Part shown: piece by piece, positions 11,433 to 19,861 of the stretch
How positions within the stretch are numbered: the stretch's first letter is position 1
Layout of the letters: every line of letters starts with the position of its first letter
Virus record (IMG/VR): IMGVR_UViG_3300044986_000312
Span: 1-24,154 of that record
DNA from: a virus
Length of the DNA: 24,154 nt
Direction: 5' to 3' (one strand)
Program-made: the position numbers and the translations under genes
The notes under the pieces: generated by a model
Database searches by the model: none
The model's input: only the letters and a program-made list of their open reading frames with translations
What the model was told of the DNA's origin: nothing

Positions 11433-12018
11433 CTTGCGTTTTTGCTATCAGCGCAAGACGGACGTTCCTCCACAGGGATGGTGGGTTACTTGTCCTATTA
11501 CTGGAGAGATTGTCAGAGGAGGAGATTGGTTTGATATGGTTAAGAATTGTGAGAAGTTGATTATGCTTCGGGGTTTGGTGCCGCCAACTGATCTCATTTC
11601 ACAGATAGAGAACTCACTTTGCGAGCGTTTGGCAGGGTCTGGTAATTGTGTTCCATGCTCTCAGGCAAAGCAAACCTTGGGCTTTGGAGAAATTGTCCGC
11701 TGGGTTCGGGCAATGTACAACTTTGCCACCCAATCTAAATTTCAATTGGTTGACCAAGAAGAGGCCGAACGCCGCGCAAAGATCTGTGCCGCCTGCCCAC
11801 ATCAAATTTCCACCTCTGGATGTTGGGGGTGCAAGGGAATTGCGGGTATGCTTCCAGCTATTGCAGGAGCCCGAAAGACCAGCTATGACGGCCAGCTAAA
11901 GGCTTGCGGGGTCTGCGGGTGTTTCAATTCTGTGAGCGTCCATCTTTCGCTGGATGTCCAGCAAGACGCCCATCTCAGCTTTCCCGACTACTGCTGGAAG
12001 AAATCTCAAAGCGAGTAA
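11425..12018 (+). CDS. Cys-rich putative zinc-binding protein, function unknown
   Basis: A GTG start at 11425 overlaps the stop of the previous gene by 8 bases. The 197-residue protein has an N-terminal WWVTCPITGEIVRGGDWFDM segment and a C-terminal cysteine cluster: ICAACPHQ, CWGCKG, ACGVCGC and a final DYCWKK. The spacing (CxxC, CxxC, CxxCxC) suggests one or two zinc sites. The pattern 'AERRAKICAACPHQ...GCWGC...L..CGVCGC' recalls unnamed phage proteins I have seen near terminases; their function is unknown. The 3' end overlaps the convergent dnaB gene by 44 bases, so both C-termini are read from the same DNA. A later start, at MVKNCEKLIMLRG, is possible. Confidence 0.75.
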   Translation: MSSLRFCYQRKTDVPPQGWWVTCPITGEIVRGGDWFDMVKNCEKLIMLRGLVPPTDLISQIENSLCERLAGSGNCVPCSQAKQTLGFGEIVRWVRAMYNFATQSKFQLVDQEEAERRAKICAACPHQISTSGCWGCKGIAGMLPAIAGARKTSYDGQLKACGVCGCFNSVSVHLSLDVQQDAHLSFPDYCWKKSQSE

Positions 12019-13309
12019 TTGCCTTGTTGAAGCTCATGGGGGCTATGCCCGTAGGCCCCTCACGATGTTTCGCTACGATGAACTCCACGGTGGGATGCTG
12101 GGTGTGGTTCTTGGCATCTCCCTCGTCGCAGTGGAGGATCATCACCATATCGGCATCCTGCTCAATAGCGCCAGACCCCTTGAGATCTGAAAGACTTGGC
12201 CTGCCTCCGCGTTTTTCGGGATCGCGGTTCAACTGGGCCAGCACCAAAACTGGAACACGCAGGGTCTTGGCAAGCTCCTTGATGCCCCCGCTAATCTCTT
12301 CGACTTCGTTAACGCGGTTGTCCTTGCTTCGTTTGCTGTCTCCGCGCAGCAACTGGAGGTAGTCGATAATGATAAGATCCAACGGCTCCTTCTGGTGGGC
12401 GCGGCGAGCCACCGCCTTGATGTAGCCGATAGATTTACCAGAGGTGTCATCGCACAGAATGTGGGAGTCTCTTACTTCGGCGTAGGCATTAGACAGACTT
12501 TCACGTTGATACTTGGTAATAGACTGGGCCAAGATGTCGGCTGCTCGCACACGGGCGCGAGAGCGAATCATCCGTTCCATCAGACTAACGCTGGTCATCT
12601 CAAGCGAGAAGATCAGCACCCGCTTTTGAGCGTCCAAGGCAACATGCTCCGCAATCTGCATGGCGGCACTGGTTTTTCCGACTGCGGGTCTGGCAGCAAG
12701 AACCGCCATATCTCCACCCCTCATGCCAAAGATCAATAGATCATCCACTGGTACCAAGCCCGTTCGTATGCCGATCTTGGGTTCGCCCCTCATGGTGGAT
12801 TCGATGTTGTCCAGAGCCCGATCAACCACGGTCTTGACCGAAAGTTTCTCGCTATCATCAATCAAGTAGTCGGCCCGCATGACTGAGGTCTCCGACCAGT
12901 TCTTGAGTTCTTCCAGCTTTAGCTCGCGGTCACGGGCCTTGTGAACCATGTCACCAGCCAATATTTCAAGGGAACGGCGATAGCGGGCTTCCTCAAGCTG
13001 CGGAAAATACCTTCTCCAGTTGTAAGAGTTTTGGCAGTAGGAAGCAATCTCCGCCAATACCTTGTCTCCGCCGATGTCCTCTATGTGGTTGTTGGCATCC
13101 AGATCACTTTTGATTGAAATGTAATCGGCATGGATGGATTTACCCACCACCCGAAGAAACGACTGGAAGATCAGCTTATGCTCGTAAAGGTGGAAGTGAT
13201 CCTCTCTGAGCGTCGAGAGCATTTCGCGCTGCTCGTCAAGTTGTGCGTGGAGGAAACAGGAAAGAACGGCGCTTTCCGACGATTGGTCGAAGATTTGGTT
13301 TTCTTGCAT
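11975..13309 (-). CDS. dnaB: Replicative DNA helicase, DnaB type
   Basis: DnaB unwinds the replication fork as a hexamer. The 444-residue protein has the DnaB N-terminal helical domain (about 8-120: SESAVLSCFL, HLYEHKLIFQSFL), a linker, and a RecA-like C-terminal domain. That domain has Walker A ARPAVGKTS at 206-214, FSLEM near 234-238, Walker B DLIIIDYLQLL near 311-321, and AQLNRDPEKRGGRPSLSDLKGSG near 358-380. All are intact, so it should be active. It is the last gene of a minus-strand operon, 9 bases after the glycosyltransferase-like gene. It ends in a Ser-rich tail in the region overlapping the convergent gene. A separate protein resembling its N-terminal domain is encoded at 18192-18650. 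Confidence 0.95.
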   Translation of the reverse strand: MQENQIFDQSSESAVLSCFLHAQLDEQREMLSTLREDHFHLYEHKLIFQSFLRVVGKSIHADYISIKSDLDANNHIEDIGGDKVLAEIASYCQNSYNWRRYFPQLEEARYRRSLEILAGDMVHKARDRELKLEELKNWSETSVMRADYLIDDSEKLSVKTVVDRALDNIESTMRGEPKIGIRTGLVPVDDLLIFGMRGGDMAVLAARPAVGKTSAAMQIAEHVALDAQKRVLIFSLEMTSVSLMERMIRSRARVRAADILAQSITKYQRESLSNAYAEVRDSHILCDDTSGKSIGYIKAVARRAHQKEPLDLIIIDYLQLLRGDSKRSKDNRVNEVEEISGGIKELAKTLRVPVLVLAQLNRDPEKRGGRPSLSDLKGSGAIEQDADMVMILHCDEGDAKNHTQHPTVEFIVAKHREGPTGIAPMSFNKAITRFEISSSSSRES

Positions 13310-15343: not shown

Positions 15344-15530
15344 GATTGTATATCTTTCCCTTCGGAGCGGTGACTTTTCGATACATATCCACCGCATTGA
15401 CCCAGCTTGTTTCCAAGGGCTGATTCCATTCTCTGGCTGGGGGGAAGTTCCATGGGTATGGGCGCGGGGTTGCAGAGACGCAGCCCGTAATAAGAATTGT
15501 TAGGATTGCTCCTTGAATTCGTAGAACCAT
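15255..15530 (-). CDS. Small lipoprotein (o-spanin-like candidate)
   Basis: GAGGAAG lies about 5 bases before the ATG at 15530, deciding the start. The 91-residue protein opens MVLRIQGAILTILITGC, a short lipoprotein signal with lipobox ITGC (Cys17 is the lipidation site). A Pro/Trp-rich segment (RPYPWNFPPAREWNQP) and a helical C-terminus (YEIERLKLRDLEEHELYQ) follow. Small phage lipoproteins with a Pro-rich part often serve as outer-membrane spanins, which fuse host membranes at lysis. The exported coiled-coil protein encoded upstream in the same operon could be the partner. This role is inferred from features and context only. The gene overlaps the 3' end of the HNH gene by 89 bases, tail to tail. 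Confidence 0.7.
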   Translation of the reverse strand: MVLRIQGAILTILITGCVSATPRPYPWNFPPAREWNQPLETSWVNAVDMYRKVTAPKGKIYNPILREYEPDFGYEIERLKLRDLEEHELYQ

Positions 15531-16147
15531 AGTTCTTCCTCGCTTTCGCTGATCCAACGACTTCCAGTGGATTCACAGCTAAACTCCTGACTGAAGACCT
15601 TCCAGTCGGGCTTGGTATCAAACTTCTTGGCAATAAACGATCCCCCGTCCATCCAAAGAACGCGGTTGTTTGGTTGGATAAAGAACTGTCCATCGCCGCG
15701 AAACACATGGCCGCACTTGTGGCCTGCGGCCAATTCTCCATAGCCAGATTGATACTGCGGACCCAGAGCCCAGTCCAAGGTAAACATATACTGGGCTTTA
15801 TGGAGGGTGCGATCTTTAAGCATGATGTTTGCGCCACGGTTTTTGCAATAGTCGATAATGCCAGCAGAGCAGTAGTAGCTCATCGCATCCCAAAGCTGTA
15901 TCCAATCCAAAGGATAAAATGTTCCGCCCGTTTCTTCGGTGTGAAGATAGTGGATTGGAACCCGTGCATGTTGGCTCCCATATTCAGTCATAATGCTGAA
16001 CAGCCCGCACCTTTGTGGAATAGAGGTGAAATTAAACACCTCCACAACAATCCTTTCCCTCGTTACATCGGGTTCTTGGTCATACAAAAATCCGCTATCC
16101 AAGAAGGCAAAGAAGACGGGGATGTTGACGTTGAGATAATTACTCAT
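15500..16147 (-). CDS. Unknown 215-aa protein between exported genes
   Basis: The start at 16147 (MSNYLNVNIPVFFAF) overlaps the upstream stop as ATGAGTAA. The 215-residue protein is rich in aromatic residues: FLYDQEPDVTRERIVVEVFNF, WIQLWDAMSYYCSAG, YMFTLDWALGPQYQSG, RVLWMDGGSF and ELWFYEF. It has five cysteines and no signal sequence or membrane helix beyond a weakly hydrophobic start. I do not recognise it. Aromatic-rich alpha/beta content would suit an enzyme or a carbohydrate-binding protein, but nothing catalytic is visible. It overlaps the lipoprotein gene start by 31 bases and is probably co-translated with it. Confidence 0.7.
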   Translation of the reverse strand: MSNYLNVNIPVFFAFLDSGFLYDQEPDVTRERIVVEVFNFTSIPQRCGLFSIMTEYGSQHARVPIHYLHTEETGGTFYPLDWIQLWDAMSYYCSAGIIDYCKNRGANIMLKDRTLHKAQYMFTLDWALGPQYQSGYGELAAGHKCGHVFRGDGQFFIQPNNRVLWMDGGSFIAKKFDTKPDWKVFSQEFSCESTGSRWISESEEELWFYEFKEQS

Positions 16148-16421
16148 TGGCAATCTTGCGAAGAAGCTCGGTTTGTTCGCGCAATTCGCGAGTTTGCTGC
16201 CTTAATTCCGCCTCCTGCCTCATGTTGGCAAGAGAGACCTCCAACTCCGCATTGATGCGACGAAGTCGGTTGATCGATTCCTCGCGGGCTCTGGCAGTAG
16301 AGTCAATCTCTCCGTTGATGACTTGAATGCGGCCCGAATCAAGATCGAATACAGTTCCATTGAATTGCTGGCCATAGCTTACGCTGGCCCCGACGATTAG
16401 TAGTAACGCTAGGTGTTTCAT
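16140..16421 (-). CDS. Exported coiled-coil protein (possible i-spanin-like)
   Basis: The start at 16421 gives 93 residues: MKHLALLLIVGASVSYG|QQ, a Sec-type N-terminus resembling those of the two exported fibre proteins, then a short beta-like segment (FNGTVFDLDSGRIQVING). A long charged helix from about 42 to the end (AREESINRLRRINAELEV, RQQTRELREQTELLRK) has heptad-like Leu/Ile spacing. If the hydrophobic start is an anchor rather than cleaved, the layout equals an inner-membrane spanin; if cleaved, it is a periplasmic coiled coil. Upstream of the ATG there is no good ribosome site; instead one arm of a 9-bp inverted repeat ends 7 bases before it. An in-frame extension to 16586 would run through that structured leader and is rejected. 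Confidence 0.65.
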   Translation of the reverse strand: MKHLALLLIVGASVSYGQQFNGTVFDLDSGRIQVINGEIDSTARAREESINRLRRINAELEVSLANMRQEAELRQQTRELREQTELLRKIANE

Positions 16422-17199: not shown

Positions 17200-17267
17200 A
17201 AAATGACCATCTCAACTACCGAGAAAGCCCGTGGGCTTTTATCATCAAGATGGAACCTTTAAAGAAG

Positions 17268-17341
17268 TAGCGGGAGTGAGAATTGAACTCACATTGCCCC
17301 AGCTTATGAGACTGGTTAGCCTACCAAGGCTTGTTCCCGCG
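17268..17341 (-). tRNA. tRNA-Met-like (anticodon CAT)
   Basis: On the minus strand the gene folds as a cloverleaf. The acceptor is CGCGGGA/TCCCGCT. The D-arm is AGCC-TTGGTA-GGCT. The anticodon stem CCAGT/GCTGG encloses the loop CTCATAA (anticodon CAT, plus 17306-17308). A T-arm GTGAG-TTCAATT-CTCAC has a normal T-loop. The first acceptor pair would be C1:U72, unpaired as in bacterial initiators (C1:A72), and the anticodon loop equals that of initiator tRNA. However, the three G:C pairs that mark initiators in the anticodon stem are missing, and position 8 is not U. It may be elongator Met, an odd initiator, or an Ile tRNA read after lysidine modification. CCA is not encoded. A good promoter and a terminator flank it on the same strand. 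Confidence 0.8.
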
Positions 17342-17367
17342 ATTGTAAAAGAACTAAGTTGACCGAG

Positions 17368-17396
17368 ATTGAACACCATCCTAGCTTTGTTGTCAA
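17368..17396 (-). promoter_or_regulatory. Candidate tRNA promoter
   Basis: On the minus strand a perfect -35 box TTGACA (plus 17391-17396) is followed by 17 bases and TTCAAT (plus 17368-17373, 4 of 6). Transcription would start near 17361, about 20 bases before the tRNA. On the plus strand the same interval holds TTGACC at 17359-17364, a possible overlapping promoter element for the divergent early operon, though its -10 (TAGCTT) is poor. Confidence 0.5.
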
Positions 17397-17409
17397 ACCC
17401 TACTTATCT

Positions 17410-17883
17410 ATGGAAACACTATCTATCCCAATTAACGAACTGCTTGAAAAAGCCAAGACCCACACCACCTCTGAACTAGCCACCCTCTATTCAAGCGACA
17501 GCGGAACCATCTACCGCATCCTTGCGAGGTATCAGGTGAAGGCCCTTCCCGCCTATGAGCCCATTTCCAAAGAGGTGTTGGAGGAGATATTTGAAGAACC
17601 CACCACGGTTACCGAAGCCGCCGAGCAACTCCATGTCACTCCTGCCACTATTACTACCGCCATCAAGAAGTATGGGCTTTTTGGGGGAGGGAGGAAGCCG
17701 ACTACCAAGGATAAGTTCAGTGGGTTTCGGGCTTTCAAGGTGCTGGGATATATGCTGAAAAATCCCGAAGAAAACCTAGCCTCTATCGGACGCCACTTCA
17801 ACTGCACCCGTGAGTATGTGAGGCAGATCAGGGAAGCTGGCATTGCCGAGGGAATTATCAAGGGAGAGGTGACCAATGAGTGA
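17410..17883 (+). CDS. Triple helix-turn-helix DNA-binding protein, probable regulator
   Basis: The ATG at 17410 (METLSIPINELLEKAK) is preferred over a TTG at 17359 that would lie in the divergent promoter region. The 157-residue protein carries three HTH-like segments: about 20-43 (SELATLYSSDSGTIYRILAR), 65-88 (TVTEAAEQLHVTPATITTAI) and 121-144 (NLASIGRHFNCTREYVRQIR). The last two match the 'A-x-x-L-x-V/C-T-x-x-x-x-x-I' pattern of sequence-specific binders. As first gene of the long plus-strand operon, divergent from the tRNA/RNA block, it is a natural candidate for controlling both directions. It could also be a replication-origin binder. Its stop overlaps the next start by 8 bases. Confidence 0.75.
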   Translation: METLSIPINELLEKAKTHTTSELATLYSSDSGTIYRILARYQVKALPAYEPISKEVLEEIFEEPTTVTEAAEQLHVTPATITTAIKKYGLFGGGRKPTTKDKFSGFRAFKVLGYMLKNPEENLASIGRHFNCTREYVRQIREAGIAEGIIKGEVTNE

Positions 17884-18172
17884 TATGACTGTAGGTTGCA
17901 TCCGAACGACTGTAACACCCCCAATAGCGGGCGGGATTTACGAGGCACTGCTGGAGAAGGCTCAACGAGAAAACGAGGAGCAAGCCAGATTGCTAGGCAA
18001 GGGAGGAGAGCGCGAAGCCCGACTCGCTACCGAACGAGACCACTACAAGCAAGCCTTGGAAGAGATCGCGACAACCATCCAAGAATACAAAGACTCCATG
18101 ATCCAAGAGCCAGCCGAAGACTTTATCTGGGCCATCAAGGCTTGGGCGGATAAGAAGTTGAAAGAAATTTAA
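17876..18172 (+). CDS. Coiled-coil protein, function unknown
   Basis: This 98-residue protein starts MSDMTVGCIRTTVTPP, overlapping the previous stop as ATGAGTGA. From residue 20 to 75 it is a continuous charged helix (ALLEKAQRENEEQARLLG, EREARLATERDHYKQALEEI) and it ends KAWADKKLKEI. It resembles small coiled-coil proteins common in phage early operons, with no catalytic motif. It may be a partner of the HTH regulator encoded just before it. Function not recognised. Confidence 0.75.
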   Translation: MSDMTVGCIRTTVTPPIAGGIYEALLEKAQRENEEQARLLGKGGEREARLATERDHYKQALEEIATTIQEYKDSMIQEPAEDFIWAIKAWADKKLKEI

Positions 18173-18191: not shown

Positions 18192-18650
18192 ATGACTAGT
18201 CCACGCCGCAGCAAGGAAACCCCGCCTCCGAAACCAGAAACGATGCGGGTTCCCCAACATCCCACAGCAGAACAAGCAGCACTGGCTTGTCTGATGGATC
18301 AAGCCAACTTATCAGTCCCGCTTACAAGTTCCCACTTCTTCACCCCCGCCAACAGGATTGTCTTTGAGGTGATCAAGGAACTCCATGAGAAAAACCAGCC
18401 AGTCAGCATAATGACTGTCCGCGTCATGCTGGAGGCCAAGGGACTCCTAGGGCAGGCAGGAGGAGACCCGTCCCGCTACTTCGACTTCGGAGGAGGAGGC
18501 AACGCCGTCCTTGACTACTACTACCACTATCTGGAAGATACCCGCCAGAACCGCGATGCCCTTCTATTTATCAATGCCCACATGGAAGATCTGTCCAAAT
18601 GCCGAATCAATGCCAAGGACTTTGTCGCCCAACTGCAGGAGATTGTCTAA
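18192..18650 (+). CDS. Stand-alone DnaB N-terminal-domain protein
   Basis: This 152-residue protein has a Pro-rich start (MTSPRRSKETPPPKPETM) and then the pattern of the DnaB helicase N-domain. The parts are HPTAEQAALACLMDQ near 23-37, SHFFTPANRIVFEVIKELHE near 47-66, QPVSIMTVRVMLEAKGLLG near 69-87, and Y...LEDTRQNRDALLFINAH near 111-130. There is no linker, P-loop or RecA domain, and the stop is followed directly by the next gene, so it is not a simple truncation fragment left in a helicase gene. In DnaB this domain forms the N-terminal collar and binds primase. A free copy might load, cap or inhibit a helicase, or recruit host primase. The full-length phage DnaB is encoded 5 kb away on the other strand. 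The domain call is by pattern; the role is speculation. Confidence 0.7.
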   Translation: MTSPRRSKETPPPKPETMRVPQHPTAEQAALACLMDQANLSVPLTSSHFFTPANRIVFEVIKELHEKNQPVSIMTVRVMLEAKGLLGQAGGDPSRYFDFGGGGNAVLDYYYHYLEDTRQNRDALLFINAHMEDLSKCRINAKDFVAQLQEIV

Positions 18651-18968
18651 ATGGGAGTTGCTTTACCAGCGGGCTATGTGGAGGTAAGAAAAGGAGATGC
18701 TATGAGCGATACACCAGATTCCGTGCCACTAATCGAACAGCTTAAAGATGTTCCGATTGATGGATATGACTCTTATCCTATTAGTAGTTTTTATCATAAA
18801 AATATCCCTTATGGGCAGTTATGCCATGATGCTTCCGAAGAAATTCAAAGGATAAAAAATGAGTGCGAAGCTTATAGGTTGTTGGCTATTGAGGCTTTAA
18901 AAGAGCTAAAATTACACTGTAAAGATCCAATTCACGAAGAGCAATTAAAGTCTTTACTGATTTCCTAA
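18651..18968 (+). CDS. Small unknown protein, AT-rich gene
   Basis: The first ATG (18651) touches the previous stop (TAAATG) with AGGAG 9 bases upstream, and gives 105 residues beginning MGVALPAGYVEVRKGDAM. A second in-frame ATG at 18702 has AAGGAG 5 bases before it and could be the main start (88 residues). The body is acidic and helical (ASEEIQRIKNECEAYRLLA, EALKELKLHC). From about 18715 the DNA turns clearly AT-rich compared with the genes before it, which continues into the next gene and suggests a separate origin. No family recognised. Confidence 0.65.
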   Translation: MGVALPAGYVEVRKGDAMSDTPDSVPLIEQLKDVPIDGYDSYPISSFYHKNIPYGQLCHDASEEIQRIKNECEAYRLLAIEALKELKLHCKDPIHEEQLKSLLIS

Positions 18969-18991: not shown

Positions 18992-19861
18992 ATGCTTACA
19001 TATTGCTCATATCAGCACACTTGCAAACAATGCGGAAGAAAATTTACTGGCGTAAAGAATAGGATATATTGCTCATACAAGTGTGCCTACACAGACAAAG
19101 AAAGGCTTAAAGATAACAACAAAAAAGACAGGGGCACATCTAATTGCAAGCGGTGCGGAAAAGAATTTTCAATAACAACAAAGTCTCCTCGCGGGATTTT
19201 TTGTTCCCGAAATTGTTCTGGAAAGTATACTTACGAAAAAGTATTGTCTGATTACCCAAGACCGACAAAACCAAAGGTCACCCTAAAGTGTGAGCATTGC
19301 AAAAAGCCGTTTGATGTTATCCCATTCTTTGCCAAAATAAGAAGGTTTTGCTCTCAGTCTTGTGCTACTCTTGGATCAACAAAGAAAAGAACCATGACCA
19401 TCCGAAGCCGATTTAAACATTATGGGGGATATTCCCGATGTAAATACGGCTGGCATCAAATAGGAGACCAAGAGATCTTTGCTCGCAGCCTATGGGAATC
19501 CAACTACGCCTACTACTTGGAGTGGCTGCGGAAGAACGGGGCAATACAGTCTTGGGAGCATGAGCCAGAGACCTTCTGGTTTGAGGGCATCAAGCGCGGC
19601 GTCTGCTCTTACCTTCCCGACTTCAAAGTTGTAGAGAACAACGGAGATGTTGTTTACCACGAAGTCAAGGGATGGATGGACAAGAAAAGCATCACCAAAC
19701 TGAAGCGGATGAAGAAATACCATCCGACAGTCAAACTCTTCTTGGCTGATTCCAAGTGGTTCGCCCAGAACGTCAAGAAGCTTTCGGGACTTGTGACAGG
19801 ATGGGGGACGGAGCCAGTTAGCAAGGACAGGAAAAAACTCGCGGCCAAGAGGAGACGTTGA
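18992..19861 (+). CDS. Three zinc ribbons fused to a PD-(D/E)XK endonuclease domain
   Basis: The 289-residue protein has three zinc-ribbon units: CKQC...YCSYKC at 11-31, CKRC...FCSRNC at 52-75, and CEHC...FCSQSC at 100-124. A nuclease domain of DUF1064/VRR-like type follows: RSLWESNYAYYLEWL with Glu169, a W-x-EPETFWFEG segment, SYLPDF with Asp210, and YHEVKG with Glu224-x-Lys226. The order E...PD...ExK is the PD-(D/E)XK active site, so cleavage of branched or specific DNA (for example a resolvase role) is likely. DNA coding the ribbons is AT-rich; the nuclease half, from about 19440, is more GC-rich and codon-matched to the phage, suggesting a recent domain fusion. It ends in a basic tail (KKLAAKRRR). 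Confidence 0.8.
   Translation: MLTYCSYQHTCKQCGRKFTGVKNRIYCSYKCAYTDKERLKDNNKKDRGTSNCKRCGKEFSITTKSPRGIFCSRNCSGKYTYEKVLSDYPRPTKPKVTLKCEHCKKPFDVIPFFAKIRRFCSQSCATLGSTKKRTMTIRSRFKHYGGYSRCKYGWHQIGDQEIFARSLWESNYAYYLEWLRKNGAIQSWEHEPETFWFEGIKRGVCSYLPDFKVVENNGDVVYHEVKGWMDKKSITKLKRMKKYHPTVKLFLADSKWFAQNVKKLSGLVTGWGTEPVSKDRKKLAAKRRR

Follow-up and report, generated by a model that had tools for sequence, protein, structure and literature searches.

A free-standing DnaB collar domain and its surroundings

The window (the whole stretch of viral DNA that was analysed, 24,154 nucleotides) carries a full replicative helicase gene on one strand and, on the other, a run of small genes, one of which encodes the N-terminal (collar) domain of DnaB on its own. 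The genes and the parts of the collar protein are as follows.

11975–13309, minus strand: full phage DnaB helicase with N-terminal and RecA domains, 444 aa (PF03796, E 2.6e-77; PF00772, E 6.4e-15)
17359–17883, plus strand: upstream gene of the collar gene run, 174 aa, two or three helix-turn-helix (HTH) segments (Pfam HTH_28 and Sigma70_r4; conserved synteny)
17876–18172, plus strand: 98-aa protein between the HTH and collar genes, probably a coiled coil as judged by eye (open reading frame; conserved adjoining the collar gene)
18192–18650, plus strand: stand-alone DnaB N-terminal (collar) domain protein, 152 aa (open reading frame, PF00772, Foldseek, dN/dS)
18252–18488, plus strand: globular head of the collar domain (N-globe), residues ~21–99 (PF00772 at residues 21–91; model helices 24–35, 52–66, 73–82 and 93–99)
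18459–18524, plus strand: family signature GGDPSR(Y/F)...GGG(N/D)A.L.Y(Y)Y, residues 90–111 (alignment of stand-alone proteins against full DnaBs)
18501–18596, plus strand: hairpin helix 7, residues ~104–135, with the DnaB-conserved Y110 and R121 (model; invariant alignment columns)
18612–18644, plus strand: hairpin helix 8, residues ~141–151 (model; kept in three lineages)
18651–18968, plus strand: 105-aa open reading frame which begins on the base directly after the collar gene stop codon

The collar gene starts with ATG. Residues 21–91 of its product match PF00772 (DnaB N-domain; E 6.6e-12) with 45.8 bits, the cut-off being 23; no other Pfam family matches the protein, and PF00772 lies above its curated cut-off in eight of eight gene-bearing records. 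Searches of PHROGs return PHROG_19 (DnaB-like helicase), matched by the N-terminal part only, and the top PDB sequence match is 2r5u, the N-terminal domain (NTD) of Mycobacterium tuberculosis DnaB (E 2e-6). The RecA-type motor with its P-loop (DnaB_C) is absent from the protein by Pfam, which is thus not a complete DnaB helicase. The first-pass annotation had placed a free-standing DnaB N-domain, lacking a RecA domain, at this position in a phage that also encodes a full DnaB; both the coordinates and the naming were right, and Pfam finds N- and C-terminal domains in the 11975–13309 gene.

The same annotation had recognised a DnaB N-domain pattern over about 110 residues. The pattern is real, but the extent was too short, since homology covers nearly the whole protein, including the hairpin. 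The C-terminal ~45 residues (hairpin, ~104–151) align nearly gap-free with full DnaBs, with Y110 and R121 invariant; the collar domain is therefore entire, and the protein ends at the domain boundary, at the point from which a linker would lead to the motor. The signature segment (residues 90–111) stands where ordinary DnaBs have YLAEL...PSAAN; it differs in the full DnaBs compared and is near-invariant among the stand-alone proteins, despite an overall identity of 47–50%.

An AlphaFold2 model calculated from 33 aligned DnaB N-domains, and hence with DnaB homologs in its input, has a pLDDT of 84.7, whereas the model from orthologs alone is weak (pLDDT 58.7). For both reasons we treat the predicted structure as supporting, rather than independent, evidence for the fold. 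Foldseek searches with the family-informed model returned DnaB NTDs over ~140 alignment columns (best E 4.5e-5; TM 0.76 to 2r5u_F), and no better match to another fold, which had been raised as an alternative at the outset, was found. A head and a two-helix hairpin are thus present both in the alignment and in the model with its Foldseek matches, the latter not being independent of DnaB homologs. The product of 18192–18650 is confirmed as a complete DnaB N-domain, which comprises the globular head as well as the helical hairpin and lacks a RecA domain. A weak structural match in BFVD (E 0.24) is to a 139-aa 'DNA primase-helicase subunit' of a T4-like phage, which may represent a split gene.

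Several other features of the region were recorded. The protein encoded at 18992–19861 (plus strand) has 289 aa and motifs resembling zinc fingers, and its PHROG matches are resolvase/HNH-like; it is present in two relatives (L138 and L150, 74–79%) and missing at this place in the nearest relatives, and is therefore probably a mobile endonuclease insertion. A tRNA-Met gene predicted at 17267–17341 (minus strand) occurs in the window only and in none of the 11 closest loci. The protein at 15500–16153 (minus strand) is conserved family-wide; the L017 ortholog hits phrog_3704, a PHROG with the label 'ferredoxin', although the label looks doubtful, the cysteines being few and scattered and a Pfam match lacking. 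No iterons that would mark an origin were found upstream in the window or in L017. One relative carries a single open reading frame of 4,220 codons (L018/L019; G001:30083–42745, minus strand), and frames of this type measure 2,806–4,220 codons across relatives, the smallest possibly being cut by a contig end.

Conservation and distribution of the collar gene

Eleven viral contigs carry the gene at 87–97% identity, one of them only partly. For the eight distinct orthologs among them (28 pairs) dN/dS is 0.03–0.16; measured against the window it is 0.065–0.153, which is tighter than for most neighbours (~0.2 for the HTH, 98-aa and 92-aa genes) and nearer to the ~0.04 of DnaB. For a control open reading frame that is probably a shadow in another frame, the values exceeded 2.5. 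The collar gene is a real gene maintained under purifying selection. More distant homologs (47–50% identity) lie in two further phage lineages, represented by L130 (record G018) and by L198/L244. They have the same end point as the window protein, and AGGDPSR..GGG.A.L.YYY is common to all (YYF in L244), a segment which is not a feature of ordinary DnaBs.

Because the homology extends over no more than the N-terminal third of DnaB, we weighed whether the gene might be the decayed remains of a second, once complete helicase, or one part of a split DnaB. Strong purifying selection, the common end point in three lineages, and the presence of at most one DnaB_C per record, with no second copy in any family record, make such an origin exceedingly improbable and led us to reject it. 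In place of relaxed selection, motor remnants or a broken frame, a low dN/dS and no more than one DnaB_C were found; nor did the loci gathered contain a short fragment of a second helicase, so that the first-pass annotation's own counter-scenario, a decayed fragment beside a full second helicase, was encountered in none of the relatives searched.

Three further ideas were discarded. The gene is not a recent copy of the N-domain of the phage's own DnaB, to which the protein is only 15–21% identical. An embedded DNA element, hinted at by low dS, was dismissed as synonymous variation is merely mildly lower in the 3′ half. Nor is the stand-alone architecture widespread: other viral or phage relatives checked are full DnaBs or are cut by a contig end (L076 aside), and across all loci gathered short, non-truncated matches to the collar profile belong to this family alone, bar two weak ones at E 0.02. 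GTDB genomes searched for a host with the collar protein and with the terminase yielded none, and a DNA-level search of INPHARED yielded no close phage.

Two genes, that of the phage DnaB and the 198-aa gene downstream, served to fetch relatives; genomes of the wider family are ~70 kb and contain the same DnaB gene. Synteny is strong across the family. Among loci that span the interval bounded by the HTH and 54/198-aa genes, 13 contain the collar gene and 32 do not, these being counts of loci, several of which come from one record. The interval in loci lacking the gene is often simply shorter (many of 531–667 bases versus ~1,300). The collar gene label needs approximately three changes on the tree built from the 198-aa protein, and on the DnaB tree the gene-bearing phages cluster together. 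From this split, and from both trees, the collar gene is an accessory one, gained or lost a few times.

The HTH and 98-aa genes are steady neighbours of the collar gene, and the remodelled GGDPSR/GGG/YYY segment is foreign to DnaB; both would fit co-option of the collar fold for an unrelated task, for example to help the neighbouring HTH protein dimerise or to serve as its adaptor in the control of early genes. Relatives without the collar gene nevertheless retain both neighbours, and the order is changed in L198 and L244, where the collar gene precedes the 98-aa gene instead of following it; we regard such co-option as distinctly unlikely.

A survey for co-occurrence with the phage helicase, as proposed in the first-pass annotation, found a full DnaB in each of the five records, the window among them, whose sequence extends into the DnaB region. 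This favours a loading or ring-assembly factor, whereby free collars would insert into or cap the collar of the phage DnaB and open or stabilise the ring at a phage origin, as do the pairing of DnaB collar hairpins as four-helix bundles (PMC2761005) and the lack of any known loader family among the annotations of the scanned phage proteins. Against it, relatives with a 79–80% identical DnaB (~90% in the RecA domain) lack the collar gene while keeping the rest of the locus, which argues that there is no general requirement, and the collar protein has little identity to the N-domain of its presumed partner. The occurrence of such closely similar DnaBs without the gene makes an obligatory helicase loader unlikely on sequence grounds, and a loading role of any kind seems to us very unlikely.

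Absence of a phage primase and the possible role of the collar protein

Toprim_2 and DnaG zinc-ribbon domains were found in none of eight gene-bearing records. A first impression that the whole phage family is primase-less was abandoned, as near-complete relatives without the collar gene do encode a primase: a Toprim primase is present in six such relatives of 58–73 kb, and a protein search added three more primase-carrying relatives, one cut by a contig end. The one checked contains Zn_ribbon_DnaG, DNAG_N, Toprim and DnaB_bind domains; L233:7423–9003 is the DnaG-type primase of relatives lacking the collar gene. Beside the primase, a conserved gene has in-frame stops (TGA/TAG) in two records (G024:4297–5307 and G028:1124–2125).

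The place of the primase is marked by conserved flanking genes. Four gene-bearing records (G001, G005, G008 and G018) retain the flanks or the surrounding block but have other open reading frames in place of the primase, and G020, from the third gene-bearing lineage, also reaches the place and has a block like that of G018. Some of the substituting frames resemble glycosyl- and methyltransferases. A primase thus occupies the syntenic place in 0 of these 5 gene-bearing records versus 9 of 10 gene-lacking records (Fisher p 0.002, a value that ignores relatedness, the gene-bearing records being related). As the gene-bearing records jointly cover nearly the whole of the G017 map, a DnaG-type primase encoded elsewhere in these phages is unlikely, judged from their sequences. 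SSB was found in none of eight records and a family A polymerase in none of 11, which makes heavy reliance on host replication proteins plausible.

Given the missing primase in the gene-bearing phages, and published binding of DnaG by isolated DnaB N-domains, the reading which we tentatively favour, with rather less than even confidence, is that the collar protein would bring host DnaG to the phage replication fork. Having a helicase but no primase, such a phage would depend on the DnaG of its host, for which a separate collar protein could provide the docking site. The NTDL of Helicobacter pylori (head, H7 and H8) binds the DnaG C-terminal domain, and a construct without H8 binds poorly (PMC2761005); the isolated M. 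tuberculosis DnaB N-domain binds DnaG with a KD of 0.21 µM (PMC12278352). Both N-domains are dimers in solution (PMC2761005). With its complete head, helix 7 and helix 8, the phage protein possesses the same parts as these DnaG-binding constructs. Three roles had been offered in the first-pass annotation, namely loading of the phage helicase, recruitment of host primase and poisoning of host DnaB; the second gains support from the missing phage primase, while the first, as an obligatory function, is disfavoured by the similar DnaBs discussed above.

Some observations weigh against docking. One record (G019) has neither the collar gene nor a primase, so a phage without a primase does not necessarily need the gene. 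The phage DnaB's own collar domain could bind host DnaG directly. Of two Bacillus stearothermophilus hairpin residues implicated in primase binding, I119 and I125, a single one appears, from placement by eye, to be matched by a hydrophobic residue in the phage protein. Moreover, one primase loss and a few gene gains, with no causal link between them, could explain the pattern, the bearers being related. The narrower proposal, in which the collar protein is a primase adaptor replacing phage DnaG (primase lost, free collar gained, host DnaG docked onto the phage helicase), is graded lower, and we consider it somewhat doubtful.

The main rival to primase docking is a host-takeover decoy, in which the free collar would bind host DnaG, DnaA or, via the hairpin, DnaB and block assembly of the host primosome, with the phage DnaB escaping. 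The collar gene lies in a plus-strand run of small early-type genes by the HTH gene, away from the phage DnaB, and its accessory distribution is typical of takeover genes; surplus DnaB inhibits replication initiation in Escherichia coli (PMC4828956), and phage 77 ORF104 is an example of a phage targeting helicase loading (PMC4887207). Yet the gene-bearing phages seem to be primase-less, so that sequestering host DnaG would hurt them too, and the constraint on the gene is strong for one engaged in an arms race. On balance we judge the decoy unlikely, and retain primase docking as the favoured reading.

Relation to known replication proteins

The phage protein has in common with the bacterial DnaB collar (M. 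tuberculosis 2R5U; E. coli 1B79/1JWE) the fold, the head and hairpin, Y110 and R121, and, by analogy, it likely has the dimerisation and primase-docking surface as well. It differs in being encoded by a separate gene that lacks the linker helix and the RecA motor, in a shorter loop after helix 1, and in having GGDPSR/GGG/YYY instead of YLAEL...PSAAN. The helicase-binding domain of DnaG (P16 / DnaB_bind) makes the same helicase–primase contact as is proposed for the phage protein, and the DnaB N-domain and DnaG C-domain have been called functional homologues (Chintakayala 2007, as cited in PMC12418098); unlike P16, however, the phage protein matches DnaB in both sequence and structure and has no primase domains attached. 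Lambda P, SPP1 G39P and phage 77 ORF104 are likewise small phage proteins on the replicative helicase pathway. No sequence match to any of the three was found, and, in contrast to lambda P and SPP1 G39P, the family comparison argues that the phage DnaB does not require the collar protein.

Among open-licence papers nothing was found on a free DnaB N-domain in phages, which is weak evidence of absence. The domain itself is thoroughly known; what appears undescribed is a free-standing family with its own signature, optional and linked to the absence of a primase. If the docking role is correct, the helicase–primase contact, which is normally built into DnaB, can come from a separate, swappable protein, and this phage family would offer a natural test of switching between a phage's own primase and that of its host. 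Should a free collar protein of this kind bind DnaG, it would also provide a small natural probe for the bacterial primosome, or an inhibitor of it.
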